Source: an uncultured Clostridia bacterium (GTDB lineage Bacteria > Bacillota > Clostridia > Oscillospirales > Ruminococcaceae). From it: a stretch of 54,301 nt of DNA. The notes under the pieces were generated by a model, which searched no databases, had not been told where the DNA came from, and saw nothing but the letters and a program-made list of their open reading frames with translations. The translations under genes were made by a program, and so were the position numbers. Each line of letters starts with the position of its first letter. Position 1 is the first letter of the stretch. Location: NCBI GenBank assembly GCA_947627235.1, contig CANQVG010000013.1, positions 1-54,301 of the forward strand, given 5' to 3'. Positions 8,965 to 19,573 of this stretch are shown here, in pieces.

Positions 8965-9792
8965 TTGAGTAAAAAGCAAAAAATAGTGAGCGCCGTTATT
9001 TTTTCAGTCGTTATCATAGCTTTGCTTATAGGGGCTCTTCTTGCGCCGTCGCAGCAAAAGGAGCCGATAAAAGAAGCTATGCGGGAGGCGGTGCTTCACG
9101 AGCACATAAAGGTCAGCCTGTTCGGACTTATCGACGTGAACCCGGCGGTAATATCCGCTTTTGCGGTTACTGCGGTTATAATTGTCTTCTGCCTTATCGT
9201 GAGGATTTTCGTGATACCGAGATTCACCGAAATTCCGGGAAAATTCCAGCTTGTTTTGGAGCAGGCTGTAAAGTATTTTTCAAACCTTGCGAAAACCAAC
9301 AGTCCTCATCGCAATAATCTTTTGGGCGCATATGTTTTTGCGGCGGGCGTGTATGTCTTTATAAGTACGCTTTGGGAGCTTTTGGGCTTTCAGGCGGTTT
9401 CCACCGACGGCCGCTCGGTGACTCTCGCCGCTCCGCTTGCCGATATCAACGGCGCGATAGCTATGGGCTTTATGTCCTATATGTTCATATTGATAAGCGG
9501 TATAATCTGCGGCAAGGCTCACGGCGCTATAAACGCCCTTAAAGACTTCTCTCTCCCGATATCTATGAGCTTTAGGCTTTTCGGAGCGCTTCTCAGCGGA
9601 GCGCTTGTCACCGACCTTGTATATCACTACTTTGCGCTGAGCTTTGTTCTGCCCGTATTTATCGGAGTGATGTTCACACTGCTTCACGCAATAATCCAGA
9701 CCTACGTTTTAACGATGCTCGTGAGCGTATTTTACGGCGAGAGCACCGAACCGCACGAAAAAAAGAAAAGAAAAAAAGCTTCGGCTTCTTGA
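8965..9792 (+). CDS. atpB: ATP synthase Fo subunit a
   Basis: Subunit a forms the two ion half-channels next to the c-ring in the membrane. The 275-residue form has about six hydrophobic segments. The essential arginine is seen in SFRLFGALLSGALV, the counterpart of E. coli RLFGNMYAG. The frame is open from an ATG at 8869, but that would lie five bases after the predicted transcript start with no ribosome binding site and adds a basic, non-conserved stretch. The TTG at 8965 is preceded by AGGCGGTGA and starts MSKKQKIV. It is the first gene of the operon. No atpI is visible. The C-terminus is a run of Lys/Glu. Confidence 0.93.
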   Translation: MSKKQKIVSAVIFSVVIIALLIGALLAPSQQKEPIKEAMREAVLHEHIKVSLFGLIDVNPAVISAFAVTAVIIVFCLIVRIFVIPRFTEIPGKFQLVLEQAVKYFSNLAKTNSPHRNNLLGAYVFAAGVYVFISTLWELLGFQAVSTDGRSVTLAAPLADINGAIAMGFMSYMFILISGIICGKAHGAINALKDFSLPISMSFRLFGALLSGALVTDLVYHYFALSFVLPVFIGVMFTLLHAIIQTYVLTMLVSVFYGESTEPHEKKKRKKASAS

Positions 9793-9824
9793 TAAAATCA
9801 TCGACCTGAAAGGATTTGATTACT

Positions 9825-10187
9825 GTGAAAATGCTGAAAATTATTCTTATATCCGTTACGGTGCTTCTTATGGCGGCGCTTATGACTACGGCGGTATTTG
9901 CCGAGTCCGAAGCCCCTGCGCCGGCAGAAGCGTCAGCGGTATCCGCCGACGGAGAGAACACCGTCCGCGACTATAAGGCGATTTCCGCCGCCGTTATAAT
10001 CGGCATAGTCGCGGCTTCGGGAGCCATAGCTATGGCTCTTACGATTATGAAGACCATTGATGGAATCGCGCGTCAGCCCGAGGCTTCGGGAAACATACGC
10101 GGAGCTATGATGCTCGGACTTGTGTTTATAGAGACCGCCATAATCTACGCGCTTATCGTCGCCATACTTGTGGTGTTCGTCCTGTAA
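9825..10187 (+). CDS. atpE: ATP synthase Fo subunit c with N-terminal extension and Ala/Ser helix motif
   Basis: This is the rotor-ring subunit. It is 120 residues, against the usual 70-90. Residues 1-26 look like a signal peptide or extra helix (MLKIILISVTVLLMAALMTTAVFA), then an Ala/Pro/Glu-rich linker, then the classic hairpin at ~50-120. The loop ARQPEA is at 82-87. The ion-carrying Glu is E103 in FIETAIIY, with Thr104 and Tyr108 at the Na+-ligand spacing. The helix-1 positions that are usually GxGxGxG read A63, S65, A67, A69, A71, and the usual Na+-ligand Gln position is Met70. Ion specificity is therefore unclear. The start is GTG, with AGG 11 bases upstream. Confidence 0.92.
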   Translation: MKMLKIILISVTVLLMAALMTTAVFAESEAPAPAEASAVSADGENTVRDYKAISAAVIIGIVAASGAIAMALTIMKTIDGIARQPEASGNIRGAMMLGLVFIETAIIYALIVAILVVFVL

Positions 10188-10205: not shown

Positions 10206-10697
10206 ATGAATCTTCCACTGAATATTGATTTACAGCAGATTCTGCTGCATATGTTCAACTTCGCGATACTTTTCGCGGCGCTCTACTTTTTGCTGTACAA
10301 GCCCGTGAAGAAGTATATCGACGCCCGCGAGGACGAGTATAAAAAGGCGTCGGACGAGGCAAAAGCAAAGCTCAGGGAAGCCGAGGAAGCCAAGGAAAAA
10401 CTCGGCGGCGAGCTTTCGGAGATGAGAGAGGAAGCAAGGCGCGAATGTTCCGAAATGGCGCAAAACGCCCAGAAGCAGTATCAGAAGAGGATATCCGAAG
10501 CCGAGGAGCAGGCCGAAAAGATAATTTCCGACGCCGAGGAGCAGGCGCAGGCAATAAAGCGCAAGGCTCTGAAAGACAGCGGAAAGGATATCGCCGAGCT
10601 TGTTAAGGAATCGGTCGGAAAAGCCGTTATCGGCAGCGCCGACGAGGCTTTTGAAGCTTTCCTGTCGTCGGTCGAAAAGGGCGGAGAAGATGAGTGA
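10206..10697 (+). CDS. atpF: ATP synthase Fo subunit b
   Basis: Subunit b is the peripheral stalk that holds F1 still. The 163-residue protein has one N-terminal membrane helix (residues ~11-28), the YKPVKKYIDARED segment typical after the helix, and a long charged coiled coil rich in Glu, Ala and Lys to the end. The length is normal. AAGGAG precedes the ATG. Its stop codon overlaps the start of the next gene, so translation is probably coupled. The partner that normally caps b, a free delta subunit, is missing from the operon (see the next gene). Confidence 0.95.
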   Translation: MNLPLNIDLQQILLHMFNFAILFAALYFLLYKPVKKYIDAREDEYKKASDEAKAKLREAEEAKEKLGGELSEMREEARRECSEMAQNAQKQYQKRISEAEEQAEKIISDAEEQAQAIKRKALKDSGKDIAELVKESVGKAVIGSADEAFEAFLSSVEKGGEDE

Positions 10698-12423
10698 CAA
10701 AAAAATTTCCGCGAGGATATACTCGCCCGAAAAGCCGAGCGAGGAACAGGCGCGGCGTTTCGAGCGATTCATAAAGCAGCGCTATAAAAGGGACTGCGGT
10801 CTCGAATGGATATGCGACGAAGACATAAGCGGGGGCTTCAGGCTCGAGGTCGGCTCCGATGTTTACGACTGGAGCGTGGAGGGTAGGCTCGCACAGCTTC
10901 AGGACGCCATATCGTCGGTCAAAGCGGCTCCGGGCGAAGACGTAATACCGCTTTTGAAAAGCGCCGTCGGGGACTGGACGCCCAAAGCGCTTTCAGAACA
11001 GACGGGAACCGTCGTCACAGTAGGCGACGGCGTGGCGACCGTAAAGGGTCTTTACGACGCCGAATACGGAGAAATTCTGCTCTTTGACGGCGGAGTCAGG
11101 GGAATGGTCCAGAATATCACCCGCCAAAGCCTCGGCTGTATGCTATTTGACGACGGAGATTCCGTCAAGGCGGGCGGCAAGGTGAAGCGCACGGGAAGCT
11201 CGGCGGGAGTTCCCGTCGGCGAGTGCTTTATCGGCAGAGTCACCGACGCTCTCGGCGTCCCGATAGACGGCAAGGGCGAGATTATCGCCTCGGGCTACCG
11301 TCCCGTGGAGAGCCCCGCGCCCGGTATCGCGGCGCGCCAGCCCGTCAACCGTCCGCTCAAAACGGGCATACTCGCCGTCGACGCTATGTTCCCGATAGGC
11401 AGAGGTCAGCGCGAGCTTATCATCGGCGACCGCCAGACCGGTAAAACCGCCATTGCAATCGACGCTATTCTGAATCAGAAGAACAGCGGCGTTATCTGCA
11501 TATACGTAGCGATAGGGCAAAAGGCAAGCTCGGTGCGGCAGATTGTCAGAACTCTCGAAGAAAACGGCGCTATGAGCTACACTACGGTTGTGTCCGCCCC
11601 TGCGAGCGACCCCGCGCCTTTGCAATACATCGCGCCGTATGCCGGCTGCGCTATGGCGGAATACTTTATGCGCAAGGGTCAGGACGTCCTCATAGTGTAT
11701 GACGACCTCTCGAAGCACGCCGTAGCTTACCGCTCTCTGAGCCTTGTGCTCGGCAGAAGCCCGGGACGCGAAGCATACCCCGGCGACGTTTTCTATCTTC
11801 ATTCAAGACTTCTCGAACGCTCGGCGAGGCTGAGCGCGGCATACGGCGGCGGAAGCATAACTGCTCTTCCGATAGTCGAGACCCTCGCGGGCAACGTTTC
11901 GTCCTATATTCCTACAAATATAATCTCTATTACCGACGGTCAGATTTTCCTCGACACTTCTTTGTTCAGAGCCGGACAGAGACCGGCGGTAAACGTCGGG
12001 CTTTCCGTATCGCGTGTCGGCGGCGACGCTATGACCCCCTGTCTTAAATCAGTTTCGGGAACGCTTCGGCTCGAGCTTGCGCAGTACCGTGAGATGAAGA
12101 TTTTCACGCAGTTTGCCAATTACCTCGACGACGAGATGCAAAAAAGCCTGCGCTTCGGCGAAATTCTGATGAATATTCTCAGGCAGGAGCAGTACCGTCC
12201 TTACGAGGAGTGGGAGCAGGCTTTCATCATCACGGCGGCTTCGTCGCGGAGTCTCGACTGGCTTCCCGACGAGGACTTTGAGGACACCCTTAGGGGCATC
12301 TGTCAAAGCTTTGCGGCGGCGCGTCCCGACGTTATCGAGAGAATCAACGGCGGCTCGAAGCTTTCGGAGGAAGACCGCGCAATCATAGCGGAGTTTGCAA
12401 AGGCGGCGCAAAATGCTCAGTGA
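10690..12423 (+). CDS. atpA: ATP synthase delta C-terminal domain fused to subunit alpha
   Basis: The 577-residue protein has two parts. Residues 1-76 match the C-terminal domain of delta/OSCP: ISARIYSPEKPSEEQ, then GGFRLEVGSDVYDWS and GRLAQL (48-70). Residues ~85-577 are a normal alpha subunit: TGTVVTVGDGVATVKG, Walker A GDRQTGKT (246-253), and the arginine finger R442 in SVSRVGGDA. The N-terminal helical domain of delta, which normally binds the alpha N-terminus, is absent, and no separate atpH exists between b and alpha. The ATG at 10690 overlaps the atpF stop. An in-frame TTG at 10954 could in principle start a free alpha, but it lacks a good ribosome binding site. Alpha function is near certain. 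The fusion is read directly from one uninterrupted frame. Confidence 0.95.
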   Translation: MSDKKISARIYSPEKPSEEQARRFERFIKQRYKRDCGLEWICDEDISGGFRLEVGSDVYDWSVEGRLAQLQDAISSVKAAPGEDVIPLLKSAVGDWTPKALSEQTGTVVTVGDGVATVKGLYDAEYGEILLFDGGVRGMVQNITRQSLGCMLFDDGDSVKAGGKVKRTGSSAGVPVGECFIGRVTDALGVPIDGKGEIIASGYRPVESPAPGIAARQPVNRPLKTGILAVDAMFPIGRGQRELIIGDRQTGKTAIAIDAILNQKNSGVICIYVAIGQKASSVRQIVRTLEENGAMSYTTVVSAPASDPAPLQYIAPYAGCAMAEYFMRKGQDVLIVYDDLSKHAVAYRSLSLVLGRSPGREAYPGDVFYLHSRLLERSARLSAAYGGGSITALPIVETLAGNVSSYIPTNIISITDGQIFLDTSLFRAGQRPAVNVGLSVSRVGGDAMTPCLKSVSGTLRLELAQYREMKIFTQFANYLDDEMQKSLRFGEILMNILRQEQYRPYEEWEQAFIITAASSRSLDWLPDEDFEDTLRGICQSFAAARPDVIERINGGSKLSEEDRAIIAEFAKAAQNAQ

Positions 12424-13300
12424 ATTTGAACTCAGAAGCCGCATAGCTTCGATAGGAGAGACTCAGAAGATAACCGGCGCTATGTATCTTATCGCCTCTA
12501 ACGAGCTTCGGCGCGCCAAGGACGCCTTTGACGAAACAAGACCGTATTTTGAGCTTCTGAGAGCGCAGATGAAGAGAATTTTCCGATGCGTCGGCAACAT
12601 CGAGAGCAGGTTTTTATACCCCGCCGACGGCAGCCACATTCCCGATGGCACCAACGGAATCTTGGTCATAACCGCCGACAAGGGTCTTGCGGGGTCGTAT
12701 AATATGAACGTCCTCAGAGAGGCGGAACGCGTCGTCAGGGAGCATCCGAATTTCAGGATTTACGCAGTGGGGAGCTTCGGCAGAAAATATTTTGCGGCAA
12801 AAAAGATAAAGGTTGAGGACGGCTTTGAATTTTCGGCTCAGAGCCCTACGCTTCACCGCGCCCGCAAAATCGCGTATTTCCTGCTTGATAAATTCGAGTC
12901 GGGAGAAATCGACAAGCTGTTTGTCATTTACACGCACTTTCACAACGACGCGGTTATGGACGTCCGCTCCGAGCGGATACTGCCCTTCCACCGCGGCGAA
13001 TTTGACGACGGGTCGGGGGTAATGACGGAAAGGTTTTCGTTTTACCCGTCGCCCAAGACTGCTCTTGAGGCGACCGTGCCGAGCTATGTCTGCGGATACA
13101 TCTACAGCGCGCTCAGCGACAGCTATCTGAGCGAACAGCGCTCGCGAATGGCAGCTATGGAGTCGGCTGACAAGAGTGCAAGAGATATGCTCGACGAGCT
13201 TGATTTTGAATACAACAGACTCCGCCAGAGCGAGATAACCCGTGAAATCACCGAGATATCCGCCGCGGCGAAATTCCAGCGTGAACACAAAAATGCCTGA
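12413..13300 (+). CDS. atpG: ATP synthase F1 subunit gamma
   Basis: Gamma is the central rotating shaft of F1. The 295-residue protein has the N-terminal coiled-coil signature IASIGETQKITGAMYLIAS, where most bacteria read KITKAMxMVA. It also has ITADKGLAGSYN in the middle and the C-terminal helix with RSRMAAMESADKSARDML and ITREITEI. The ATG overlaps the end of the preceding gene by 11 bases. The earlier in-frame ATG at 12395 lacks a better ribosome site and adds a basic stretch. Length and order in the operon are normal. Confidence 0.95.
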   Translation: MLSEFELRSRIASIGETQKITGAMYLIASNELRRAKDAFDETRPYFELLRAQMKRIFRCVGNIESRFLYPADGSHIPDGTNGILVITADKGLAGSYNMNVLREAERVVREHPNFRIYAVGSFGRKYFAAKKIKVEDGFEFSAQSPTLHRARKIAYFLLDKFESGEIDKLFVIYTHFHNDAVMDVRSERILPFHRGEFDDGSGVMTERFSFYPSPKTALEATVPSYVCGYIYSALSDSYLSEQRSRMAAMESADKSARDMLDELDFEYNRLRQSEITREITEISAAAKFQREHKNA

Positions 13301-15117
<1,817 letters not shown>

Positions 15118-15130
15118 AATTCAAGAATAA

Positions 15131-15155
15131 ACCCCGCGCATCGACGCGGGGTTTT
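15131..15155 (+). terminator. Terminator of the ATP synthase operon
   Basis: The perfect stem ACCCCGCG / CGCGGGGT has a six-base loop followed by TTT. It lies between the convergent atpC and ldhA genes. Confidence 0.92.
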
Positions 15156-16514: not shown

Positions 16515-16727
16515 ATGATACCTCTGACATTTGCCGACGTAGGTAGCGAAATTATAATAAAAAAGGTCGGCGGCAGTCCGGAAGTCAAGCAGCACCTTGC
16601 GGATCTCGGGTTTGTGGTCGGCGGAACCGTTACGCTGATATCCGATCTGGGAGGAAATCTGATCGTCAAGGTAAAGGATTCAAGAGTGGCGGTCAGCCGC
16701 GAAATGGCGGCAAAGATAATGGTTTGA
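16515..16727 (+). CDS. feoA: FeoA domain protein (first copy)
   Basis: FeoA is a small cytosolic SH3-like protein that works with FeoB in ferrous iron uptake. The 70-residue protein has the family pattern: a short helix with VKQHLADLGFVVGGTV, then beta strands ending in VAVSREMAAKIMV. AAAGGA lies 11-16 bases before the ATG. It shares limited identity with the second FeoA, so the two are likely separate binding partners and not a fresh duplication. It is directly under the iron operator. Confidence 0.9.
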   Translation: MIPLTFADVGSEIIIKKVGGSPEVKQHLADLGFVVGGTVTLISDLGGNLIVKVKDSRVAVSREMAAKIMV

Positions 16728-16777
16728 CCGCGTTGTAAAATCCGGGGGATTATGTCCCCCGAAATTAACGCCGGCGC

Positions 16778-16793
16778 GTTAGCCTTGGCTAAC
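16778..16793. promoter_or_regulatory. Candidate iron operator 3, between the feoA genes
   Basis: The perfect palindrome GTTAGC-CTTG-GCTAAC lies 36 bases before the second feoA. Just upstream, 16743-16761 holds a GGGGGA/TCCCCC hairpin without a T-run. A good promoter between the genes is not obvious, so this box may act on a weak internal promoter or as a roadblock. Confidence 0.65.
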
Positions 16794-16828
16794 CGCTTGC
16801 AATCAGTTTATCACAAGGAGGAGCAGCT

Positions 16829-17050
16829 ATGAGAACACTGAATCAGGTAAAAGTAGGCGACACGGTAAAGGTCGTCAAGCTTCACGGCGAGGGCGCGGTC
16901 AAGCGCCGAATAATGGATATGGGCATCACCAAGGGCGTAGAGGTCTATGTGCGCAAGGTGGCGCCGCTGGGCGATCCGTTTGAGGTGAACGTCCGCGGCT
17001 ACGAACTGAGTCTGAGAAAAGCCGACGCCGAGATGATAGAAGTAGAGTAG
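16829..17050 (+). CDS. feoA: FeoA domain protein (second copy)
   Basis: The 73-residue SH3-like FeoA protein shows VGDTVKVVKLHGEGAVKRRIMDMGITKGVEVYV and ends ELSLRKADAEMIEVE, the classic FeoA pattern with the MGI turn. AAGGAGGAG lies a few bases before the ATG. It is 51 bases ahead of feoB, so it is the FeoA most tightly tied to FeoB expression. Confidence 0.93.
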   Translation: MRTLNQVKVGDTVKVVKLHGEGAVKRRIMDMGITKGVEVYVRKVAPLGDPFEVNVRGYELSLRKADAEMIEVE

Positions 17051-17101
17051 TAAACGGCGAAAATTCGGCATATCTATTTATAAAGAAAAGAGGACAAGAC
17101 A

Positions 17102-19573
17102 ATGAGTATAAGAATAGCCCTCGCGGGCAACCCAAACAGCGGAAAAACGACGCTTTTCAACGCGCTGACCGGTTCCAACCAGTTTGTAGGCAACTGGCCG
17201 GGTGTAACGGTTGAAAAGAAGGAGGGAAAGCTTCGCAGACACGATGGCGTGACTGTCACCGACCTGCCCGGAATCTACTCGCTTTCACCCTACACGCTCG
17301 AGGAGGTCGTGGCGAGAAACTACCTGATAGAGGAGCGTCCCGACGCGATTCTCAACATTATCGACGGAACCAATCTTGAAAGGAATCTCTATCTTACGAC
17401 GCAGCTTACGGAGCTGGGTATTCCCGTGGTGGCGGCTGTCAATATGATGGATGTCGTGGAAAAGAACGGAGATAAAATCAACACCAAGGAACTTTCAAAG
17501 CGGCTCGGGTGCAGGATAGTGGAGATCTCCGCCCTAAAGGGAGACGGCGTTATGGAGGCGGCGGAAGCCGCTATAGAGGCTGCAAACGGCGGCAAAACCG
17601 TCCCGATGCACACGTTTTCGGGAGTTGTGGAACACGCCCTCGCACACATCGAGGAAGCAGCAGTTCACGGTCTTCCCGCCGAACAGCAGAGATGGTACGC
17701 CATAAAGATTTTCGAGCGGGATTCAAAGGTGCTGGAAAAGCTCAGTATTCCCGAAAACGTCCTCGCGCACATTGAGGAAGACATCAGGTCCGCCGAAGCC
17801 GAGCTTGACGACGACGCCGAATCAATCATAACCAACGAAAGGTACGTCTACATAGCCGAGGTGATAAAGGGCTGCTCAAAAAAAGCGGGAGCGGGCCGCC
17901 TGACTGTTTCGGATAAGATAGACAAGGTTGTTACCAACCGCTGGCTCGCGCTTCCGATATTTGCGGTGGTAATGATAATCGTCTACGCCGTTTCCGTGAC
18001 TACGCTCGGCGGTATTCTCACCGACTGGGCAAACGACGGAGTGTTCGGCGACGGCTGGCATCTGTTCGGAATAGGCACGGGTGCTTACGAAGAAGCCGCC
18101 GAAGAATACGGCGAGGCTGTAAACGCCATCGACGCCTTTGCAGGGCAGTACGGAGTAGAGGCGCCCGACCTTGAAACGGCGGACAAAGCGGCTGTAGACG
18201 AGTTTGCCGCGCAGTTCTCCGCAGGAGATACGGCGGTTCTCACCGTTGTCGACGAGGAGACCCTTGCCGAAGAAGAGGTAGTCTACACCGGCGAAGACCT
18301 CGCTCTTGCGGGTACAGTCCTCGATAAATACGGCTTTGCGGAGCCGGACTCCGCCGAGTACGGCGTGTGGATACCGGGCATACCCGTGTTTGTAGAGTCG
18401 GCGCTCGACGCAATCAACTGCGCCGACTGGCTCAAGGGACTTATACTCGACGGCATTGTCGCGGGTGTCGGAGCGGTTCTGGGCTTCGTCCCACAGATGC
18501 TGATACTGTTCATCTTCCTCGCGTTTCTCGAAAGCTGCGGATATATGGCGAGAATCGCGTTCGTTATGGACAGAATCTTCCGCAAATTCGGTCTTTCGGG
18601 CAAGTCGTTCATACCTATGCTCATCGGTTCGGGCTGCGGAGTTCCGGGAATTATGGCTTCGCGCACGATTGAAAACGAGCGTGACCGCAGAATGACCATT
18701 ATGACCACGACTTTTATCCCCTGCGGTGCTAAGCTTCCCTTTATAGCTATGATTGCGGGAGCCATATTCGGCGGCGCATGGTGGGTGGCGCCGTCGGCTT
18801 ACTTCCTCGGCGTTGCGGCGATAATCGTGTCCGGCATTATGCTCAAAAAGACAAAAATGTTTTCCGGAGATCCAGCACCCTTTGTTATGGAGCTTCCTGC
18901 TTACCACTGGCCGACTGTCTCAAACGTTATGCGTTCGATGTGGGAGCGCGGCTGGAGCTTTATCAAAAAGGCGGGAACGATAATTTTGCTTTCGACTATC
19001 GTCGTGTGGTTTGCCACCTACTTCGGCTTTGTCGACGGGAGCTTCCGTATGCTCGCCGAGGACGAGATAAGTCATTCCCTTCTTGCAACTCTCGGCGGCG
19101 CTATCGCGTGGATATTCGCGCCTCTCGGCTGGGGCAACTGGCAGGCGGCGGTGGCTTCGATTACGGGACTTGTAGCCAAGGAGAATATAGTCGGCACGCT
19201 CGGCATACTCTACGGCGGCGGAGAATCCTCGGTCTACGCGGCTATGGGGACGGCGTTTACGGCGGTCAGCGGATACGCGTTTTTGGCGTTCAATCTGCTC
19301 TGCGCGCCCTGCTTCGCGGCGATAGGCGCCATACGCAGAGAAATGAACAGCGCAAAGTGGACGTGGTTTGCAATAGGATATCAGAGTGCGTTTGCTTACG
19401 CAGTTGCGTTGATGATAAATCAGTTCGGGCTTCTGTTTACGGGTACGCCCAACCTCATAGGACTTGCCGCGTCGGTGCTTATAGCCGTCCTGATGATTTA
19501 CATGCTGTTCAGACCCTATAGGGAAGCAACGGTTTTCACCGCCGATAAAAAGGTGAAAGTAACTGCAAGGTAA
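17102..19573 (+). CDS. feoB: Ferrous iron transporter FeoB with acidic insertion
   Basis: FeoB imports Fe2+ across the cytoplasmic membrane using an N-terminal GTPase. The 823-residue protein has G1 GNPNSGKT (9-16), G3 DLPG (54-57) and G4 NMMD (114-117), a helical spacer, then two Gate repeats and Core helices (GVGAVLGFVPQMLILF, IPMLIGSGCGVPGIMASR, MTIMTTTFIPCGAKLPF). After the first core helix, residues ~317-425 form a ~105-residue, very acidic, non-membrane insertion that ordinary FeoB lacks. By topology it would lie outside the cell. The remaining length and motifs are intact. Confidence 0.96.
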   Translation: MSIRIALAGNPNSGKTTLFNALTGSNQFVGNWPGVTVEKKEGKLRRHDGVTVTDLPGIYSLSPYTLEEVVARNYLIEERPDAILNIIDGTNLERNLYLTTQLTELGIPVVAAVNMMDVVEKNGDKINTKELSKRLGCRIVEISALKGDGVMEAAEAAIEAANGGKTVPMHTFSGVVEHALAHIEEAAVHGLPAEQQRWYAIKIFERDSKVLEKLSIPENVLAHIEEDIRSAEAELDDDAESIITNERYVYIAEVIKGCSKKAGAGRLTVSDKIDKVVTNRWLALPIFAVVMIIVYAVSVTTLGGILTDWANDGVFGDGWHLFGIGTGAYEEAAEEYGEAVNAIDAFAGQYGVEAPDLETADKAAVDEFAAQFSAGDTAVLTVVDEETLAEEEVVYTGEDLALAGTVLDKYGFAEPDSAEYGVWIPGIPVFVESALDAINCADWLKGLILDGIVAGVGAVLGFVPQMLILFIFLAFLESCGYMARIAFVMDRIFRKFGLSGKSFIPMLIGSGCGVPGIMASRTIENERDRRMTIMTTTFIPCGAKLPFIAMIAGAIFGGAWWVAPSAYFLGVAAIIVSGIMLKKTKMFSGDPAPFVMELPAYHWPTVSNVMRSMWERGWSFIKKAGTIILLSTIVVWFATYFGFVDGSFRMLAEDEISHSLLATLGGAIAWIFAPLGWGNWQAAVASITGLVAKENIVGTLGILYGGGESSVYAAMGTAFTAVSGYAFLAFNLLCAPCFAAIGAIRREMNSAKWTWFAIGYQSAFAYAVALMINQFGLLFTGTPNLIGLAASVLIAVLMIYMLFRPYREATVFTADKKVKVTAR

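Follow-up and report, generated by a model that had tools for sequence, protein, structure and literature searches.

The window, i.e. the whole 54,301-nucleotide stretch of DNA analysed here (contig C13 of a gut bacterium's genome, assembled to 1.65 Mb in 37 contigs with 97.6% completeness), encodes an F-type ATP synthase in which the C-terminal domain of subunit delta (deltaC) is fused to the N-terminus of subunit alpha. By analogy with an engineered enzyme, from which we infer the stalk number, this is most likely a natural multi-stalk F-ATPase. The kind itself is already known, because Ueno et al. 2025 engineered a deltaDeltaN-alpha fusion in Bacillus PS3 (PDB 9jc1) and also report natural genes (PMC12229609); judged by its sequence, the window gene is a further natural case. 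The first-pass annotation, made from the DNA letters, knew of no described delta-alpha stator, a view that this paper overturns.

The deltaC-alpha gene and its operon

A Pfam search identifies, in the frame 10690–12423, an OSCP match at residues 4-73 with 41.0 bits (cut-off 22.3) and an E value of 2.8e-10; the barrel, nucleotide-binding and C-terminal domains of alpha come after it, and TIGR00962 yields 668.7 bits against a cut-off of 484.45. The first-pass annotation had read this frame as a delta/OSCP C-terminal domain (residues 1-76) covalently tethered to a complete alpha, and the coordinates, the domain call and the tether are all borne out by these searches. The features of the locus are the following:

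8965..9792, + strand: atpB, subunit a (PF00119, 59.4 bits; start codon uncertain)
9825..10187, + strand: atpE, subunit c (PF00137, 40.0 bits; start uncertain, GTG 9825 or TTG 9816)
10206..10697, + strand: atpF, subunit b, 163 residues (PF00430, 48.6 bits)
10690..12423, + strand: deltaC-alpha fusion, 577 residues (ATG at 10690, stop at 12421-12423)
10699..10908, + strand: delta/OSCP C-terminal domain, residues 4-73 of the fusion (PF00213 positions 101-171 of 172)
10936..10971, + strand: alpha N-terminal helix, EDVIPLLKSAV... (predicted helix 85-94; aligned with the PS3 alpha N-terminus in 9jc1)
11005..12420, + strand: alpha core (TIGR00962; P-loop GDRQTGKT and SRVGG arginine region present)
12413..13300, + strand: atpG, subunit gamma (PF00231, 262.4 bits)
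13316..14704, + strand: atpD, subunit beta (TIGR01039, 770.7 bits, cut-off 462.85; P-loop present)
14701..15117, + strand: atpC, subunit epsilon (PF02823, 62.1 bits)
15132..15155, + strand: terminator-like hairpin CCCCGCG...CGCGGGGTTTT after epsilon, read by eye

Subunits a, b, c, alpha, beta, gamma and epsilon of an F-type ATP synthase are encoded together in the order a-c-b-[deltaC-alpha]-gamma-beta-epsilon, with the atpA and atpD equivalog cut-offs passed. The C-terminal helices of epsilon are apparently present (PF00401, 23.1 bits, below the cut-off of 24.6), and the C-terminus of b keeps a similar pattern, as judged by eye. No match to atpI or to a separate two-domain delta (atpH) is found in the window operon, where the deltaC fused to alpha is the sole delta part; the delta N-terminal domain (deltaN) is absent from this enzyme, as first annotated. 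Further downstream, two small FeoA-like frames and an 823-residue FeoB-like frame can be recognised by eye (window 16515-19573).

The start codon at 10690 is preceded by the word GGCGGAG and lies in an 8-base overlap with the b stop. In an AlphaFold2 model of the fusion (mean pLDDT 73, pTM 0.68; 77-88 for residues 11-70 in blocks of ten), deltaC has a predicted strand-helix-three strands-helix arrangement (strands 7-12, 37-42, 51-54 and 57-60; helices 18-32 and 63-75). The N-terminal helix segment of alpha that follows is the one that meets delta in ordinary enzymes. A Foldseek search started with this model identifies chains I, K and J of 9jc1 as ranks 1-3 among 350,542 PDB chains, with 570-571 alignment columns; residues 10-531 of the window protein align with 9jc1_I, and its linker is two residues shorter.

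In comparisons of the window with its two closest relatives (L037 and L045), deltaC has a dN/dS of 0.135, and the values of alpha are 0.047 and 0.037. The other computable pairs with the window, at mostly saturated synonymous sites, give 0.12-0.42 for deltaC and 0.09-0.145 for alpha, and two pairs among the relatives give about 0.33 and 0.28 for deltaC. Since the values are below 1 in every computable pair, deltaC is kept by selection, less strictly than the more slowly evolving alpha.

The a subunit of the window keeps the channel arginine (FRLFG), and the asparagine that comes next in other a subunits is replaced by alanine (RLFGA). In an alignment of 32 a subunits, RLFGA is present in all 17 window-type sequences, two of them from loci with a tandem deltaC, and the remaining 15 read RLFGN, RLYGN or RMFGN; given that these include three loci with deltaC-alpha (L042, L118 and L135), the alanine goes with the window's clade and not with the fusion as such. 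In the alignment of c subunits, those of the window and its clade have a hydrophobic N-terminal extension; in the window c (9816-10187) it places about 50 residues ahead of the hairpin, ends near AFAES and resembles a signal peptide. At the position where Na+ rings have Gln, the window c has Met, with Thr and Tyr near the carboxylate. RLFGA and the c extension are both located in the membrane motor, and any relation to the type of ion or to the packing of more than one a subunit is speculation.

The same genome encodes a second, ordinary F-ATPase. Contig C4 carries a full-length atpH (179 residues; OSCP at 2-171, 148.5 bits) within a complete operon of atpI, a, c, b, delta, alpha, a GNAT-like gene, gamma, beta and epsilon, so the initial reading that there is no separate atpH applies to the window operon and fails for the genome. 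The GNAT-like acetyltransferase gene between alpha and gamma (L036:7196-7771, + strand) was assigned its function by eye. Only four alpha/beta-type ATPase domains are found in the genome, all from the fused and the ordinary enzymes. In 13 of 30 congeners, a second OSCP match lies in an open frame of 583-619 residues beside a full-length delta (in one of the 13, G016, this second match is under the Pfam cut-off); G021, a congener outside the 13, has two OSCP matches that resemble the halves of one split delta. The coexistence of a fused and an ordinary F-ATPase in one genome is new here.

Architectures in related genomes and their history

The survey covered this genome and related loci, an alpha being tabulated if it had at least 440 residues and more than 350 bits; distinct alphas are those with different alpha cores, so that some rows share an assembly (L076, L102). 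Pieces of the window genome already present (L001-L006) and duplicates (L056, L057, L058, L061 and L086) were left out, and two alphas missed by the P-loop pattern were dropped (L134, and L154, which looks like deltaC-alpha). The combination of OSCP and alpha domains in the deltaC-alpha form is found in 64 of the 142 distinct alphas, the window included. The rest comprise 6 full delta-alpha fusions, 4 tandem deltaC-deltaC-alpha, 9 b'-deltaC-alpha, 5 with a stand-alone deltaC, single cases of delta-deltaC and b-deltaC, one uncertain and three unclassified rows (L009, L120 and L127), and 48 ordinary alphas with a separate delta, among them L105, in which delta is fused to b; these counts are not frequencies, because many loci were picked for their odd look. 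Going by their titles, the named records among the deltaC-alpha rows come from goat, sheep, reindeer, horse, chicken and rumen samples and include Mogibacterium, Lachnospiraceae, Christensenellaceae, 'Clostridia' and Caldicoprobacter algeriensis. Of the deltaC-alpha rows, 7 escaped a delta profile based on 30 full-length deltas; a further profile, derived from the remaining 57 and hence circular for these, found the 7 at E 4.3e-27 or better.

This distribution bears on the possibility that the fusion is an artefact, with an assembly error or frameshift joining a broken atpH to atpA, or that the operon is decaying. The nearest named relatives are metagenome assemblies, but the form recurs in so many distinct alphas, including that of Caldicoprobacter algeriensis TH7C1 (L118), that assembly error or frameshift as its source is ruled out by conservation. 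The dN/dS values and the match of the other operon subunits to their families also argue against decay or artefact, for which we see hardly any room.

An OSCP match is found in 171 of the 297 genomes of the window's order. In 50 of these (counted by hand), the top match falls short of E 1e-15, which every full-length delta among the matches listed surpasses; for 19 of the 50, the match is among those listed, and all 19 start at profile position 86 or beyond, while the remaining 31 could include divergent full-length deltas. Across the class, OSCP matches occur in 168 of 293 genomes; among the matches listed, frames of 604-611 residues match from profile position 100 or beyond and frames of 671-691 residues from positions 18-35. 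The breadth of deltaC-alpha among the relatives is new here.

The b'-deltaC-alpha triple fusions (L038, L039, L108 and L136-L141; 736-759 residues) have a hydrophobic segment within the first 28 residues, with a 19-residue Kyte-Doolittle maximum of 2.0-2.7, compared with no more than 0.73 beyond it; deltaC follows from residue 151-176. Pfam searches with five of them all identify an N-terminal ATP-synt_B domain (26.2-36.9 bits, two below the 28-bit cut-off) in addition to OSCP and alpha. The model of L108 (mean pLDDT 71; under 50 at 107-146) contains a single helix at residues 6-114 and more helix up to 169, followed by deltaC and alpha. A separate b gene is located just upstream in all nine loci. 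The triple fusion belongs to the only rotary ATPase found in four of the eight genomes searched (G054, G286, G235 and G087), on the basis that only two alpha/beta-type matches exceed the cut-off, both from this enzyme, with G286 and G235 being only 91% complete; the other four genomes (G055, G137, G252 and G115) have two further alpha/beta-type matches.

The tandem fusions (L101, L103, L104 and L148) correspond to up to six deltaC per F1. In L142-L147 (668-697 residues), a full or nearly full delta with both domains is fused to alpha, and in L040, L149, L150, L151 and L133 a stand-alone deltaC of 71-80 residues is encoded by a separate gene between b and alpha. No description of the triple, tandem, full delta-alpha or stand-alone deltaC forms was found in the literature covered, a search with few fusion-specific terms that had most subscription journals and preprints outside its range.

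Several single loci are unusual in other respects. L152:4899-5654 (- strand) encodes, in 251 residues, delta followed by a second deltaC, that is, one N-terminal domain and two b-binding domains. In L153:1385-3709 (- strand), gamma and beta share one 774-residue frame, joining rotor to stator, in an operon that also has a b-deltaC fusion; this frame may result from a lost stop or an assembly error. L105:3366-5207 (+ strand), from uncultured Ruminococcus sp. RUG11801, encodes an F-type c subunit of 613 residues with eight tandem hairpins, followed by a 331-residue b-delta fusion; when such a c subunit was sought across 60 genomes from a single family, no frame among the matches listed exceeded 222 residues.

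A tree was built from 73 alphas, thinned to 85% identity within each architecture and with the unclassified rows left out; its root was not inferred, so that any wording in terms of loss rests on the ordinary delta being the common state. In the clade of the window (bootstrap 100, SH-aLRT 98), full delta-alpha fusions are near the base and the main group of deltaC-alpha and tandem fusions is nested inside (100/99), which suggests that the fusion came first and the N-terminal domain was lost later. The exceptions to this order are L105, with a separate alpha and a b-delta fusion, and the deltaC-alpha of L155, which sits apart. The triple fusions form a clade of their own (100/98), and a third clade (98/93) unites the Caldicoprobacter-type fusion, the stand-alone deltaC, b-deltaC and two more deltaC-alpha rows. 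At a minimum, four changes are needed between the full and the N-terminal-less delta and six between fused and separate alpha; the minimum of four between a full delta and deltaC alone is new here. The AU test rejects a single origin of all delta-alpha fusions (p 3.7e-5) and of all rows without the N-terminal domain (p 0.00086), the p values being somewhat optimistic as the groups were named after the first tree had been seen.

The number of peripheral stalks

The textbook F-ATPase has one peripheral stalk and one a subunit, and its number of ions per ATP is the size of the c-ring over three. Ueno et al. removed the N-terminal domain of PS3 delta and joined its C-terminal domain to alpha, on the reasoning that the N-terminal domain, located on the threefold axis, permits one stalk only (PMC12229609). 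In the engineered enzyme, as many as three b2 stalks are present, about two on average, and every stalk has its own a subunit; three-stalk particles are very few, for which the authors blame sample preparation. Its H+/ATP ratio is 5.8 versus 3.0, and it makes ATP from a weaker ion gradient. The Discussion of that paper names natural deltaDeltaN-alpha genes (Acidaminococcus fermentans; UniProt G4Q3K6 and A0A1I2C5T3); the authors predict several stalks for the natural genes and leave their natural use as an open question (PMC12229609).

For the window enzyme, a comparable mechanism can be proposed. The stator adaptor is reduced to the b-binding deltaC at the alpha N-terminus; given that alpha is present in three copies and the symmetry-breaking deltaN is gone, F1 would offer three equivalent b2 docking sites, and the complex would take up two or even three peripheral stalks. 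An a subunit would come with each stalk, and the more a subunits there are, the more ions would be moved per ATP. ATP could then be made, or a gradient poised, at an ion-motive force below the one that the cell's ordinary enzyme requires. As a joint explanation, a second F-ATP synthase with deltaC-alpha, more than one stalk (up to three), an a subunit with each and more ions per ATP appears reasonably probable. Extrapolation from PS3 is not direct, because the a and c subunits of the window are divergent, and the native number of stalks could be one or two, as the engineered average is about two. The expectation in the first-pass annotation that three b-binding domains per F1 should be present follows from the tether of deltaC to alpha; its suggestion that the extra ones contact b holds for the engineered equivalent with its up to three b2 stalks (PMC12229609), and for the window it is something that we infer.

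If free alpha were made, there would be fewer deltaC per F1. Within residues 2-110, the window gene has two more in-frame starts, GTG 63 in deltaC and, in the junction, TTG 89, both lacking a Shine-Dalgarno-like word, and residues 64-110 include no ATG or GTG; internal initiation thus appears unlikely to yield free alpha in the window, and three deltaC per F1 are the default expectation, short of proteolysis. A plausible internal start, defined as an ATG or GTG in the 36-codon junction accompanied by a Shine-Dalgarno-like word of at least four bases, is found in 10 of the 64 deltaC-alpha rows, in all 4 tandem rows, in 1 of the 9 triple fusions and in none of the 6 full delta-alpha rows, and at the corresponding place in 32 of the 48 ordinary alphas. 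On these counts, free alpha is disfavoured in the window and in most of the deltaC-alpha rows, but not in the tandem ones.

The triple fusions would tie a membrane stalk to every alpha. As alpha is present three times per F1 and b' is fused to it, each alpha would bring its own stalk, and fewer than three stalks would be difficult to obtain unless the fusion is cleaved or free alpha is made. All nine, each with its separate b gene, lend indirect support to several stalks.

The window operon contains single genes for a and b, which would be expected whether the enzyme has one stalk or three. Such single genes, as in ordinary operons, are also compatible with a one-stalk enzyme in which the fusion is a tether for assembly or strength, one deltaC binds b2, and the other two are idle or packed on the crown, replacing deltaN. 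The full delta-alpha fusions, in which three N-terminal domains cannot all be on the axis, keep that domain, so that fusion is possible with it and need not by itself mean three stalks; moreover, three-stalk particles are scarce in the engineered enzyme (PMC12229609). Against a single stalk, the engineered equivalent took up extra b and a (PMC12229609), the b'-deltaC-alpha fusions give each alpha its own stalk, and deltaC is still recognised by a profile in 64 of 64 deltaC-alpha rows, 57 of these being in the profile. We consider the one-stalk enzyme rather unlikely.

In window-like genomes, the N-terminal domain of the ordinary delta might dock on the fused alphas. Both proteins are encoded in the window genome and the 13 congeners, and a full-length delta placing this domain on the axis of the fused alphas would give a one-stalk hybrid. 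However, four genomes with deltaC-alpha (G038, G053, G213 and G239) have one OSCP match and one a-subunit match each, both of the fused enzyme, and no other OSCP match, so we regard the mixed complex as quite improbable.

With several stalks as the preferred reading, a broader scenario can be put forward tentatively, namely that Clostridia and their kin repeatedly dropped the stalk-limiting delta domain, which would have given rise to natural multi-stalk, multi-a enzymes, with three stalks obligatory in b'-deltaC-alpha, the window enzyme following the same principle with b free, and two gearings side by side in the cell. Should two or three a subunits be present in natural deltaC-alpha enzymes, energy conversion would be geared far more flexibly than assumed, and this would suit fermenters on small ion gradients. 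Candidate natural enzymes are frequent among the window's relatives. Caldicoprobacter algeriensis is a cultured thermophile, and in the named strain TH7C1 the L118 enzyme could be purified directly.

Comparison with known rotary ATPases

Like the engineered PS3 enzyme, the window protein consists of deltaC, a short linker and alpha, with no deltaN and no separate delta in the operon, the ordinary delta being encoded in another operon; in domain architecture it is of the deltaDeltaN-alpha type of Ueno et al. Unlike the engineered enzyme, it is natural, is accompanied by a divergent a (RLFGA) and c (N-terminal extension), and apparently has the C-terminal helices of epsilon, which are lacking in the former. 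Going by the Discussion of PMC12229609 alone, the domain order is the same in the natural genes named there, and that Discussion makes no mention of a second, ordinary enzyme or of the other architectures.

The mycobacterial b-delta protein (PDB 7jg5 chain d) is likewise a covalent stator fusion that involves the same delta domain. In the window, delta is not on a b-like C-terminus, and b is encoded by a separate gene of 163 residues. Mycobacterial delta is joined to b and is present in one copy per enzyme.

N-ATPase operons include the extra genes atpQ and atpR, and their gene order begins with beta-epsilon, unlike the order a-c-b-alpha-gamma-beta-epsilon of the window. N-ATPases resemble the window enzyme in being F-type without a separate delta, and they are said to lack delta and to have a longer b (PMC5706428), whereas the window has deltaC and the b of the above length. 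An identity with N-ATPases was rejected, the alt_F1F0 models scoring below their cut-offs (alpha 586.9 versus 750.5, beta 594.5 versus 752).

The eukaryotic V-ATPase has a single a subunit, and its stalk attachment is unrelated to that of the window enzyme. With its three EG stalks, it nevertheless carries several stalks on one catalytic ring (PMC6131620), the kind of arrangement that is proposed here for the window enzyme.
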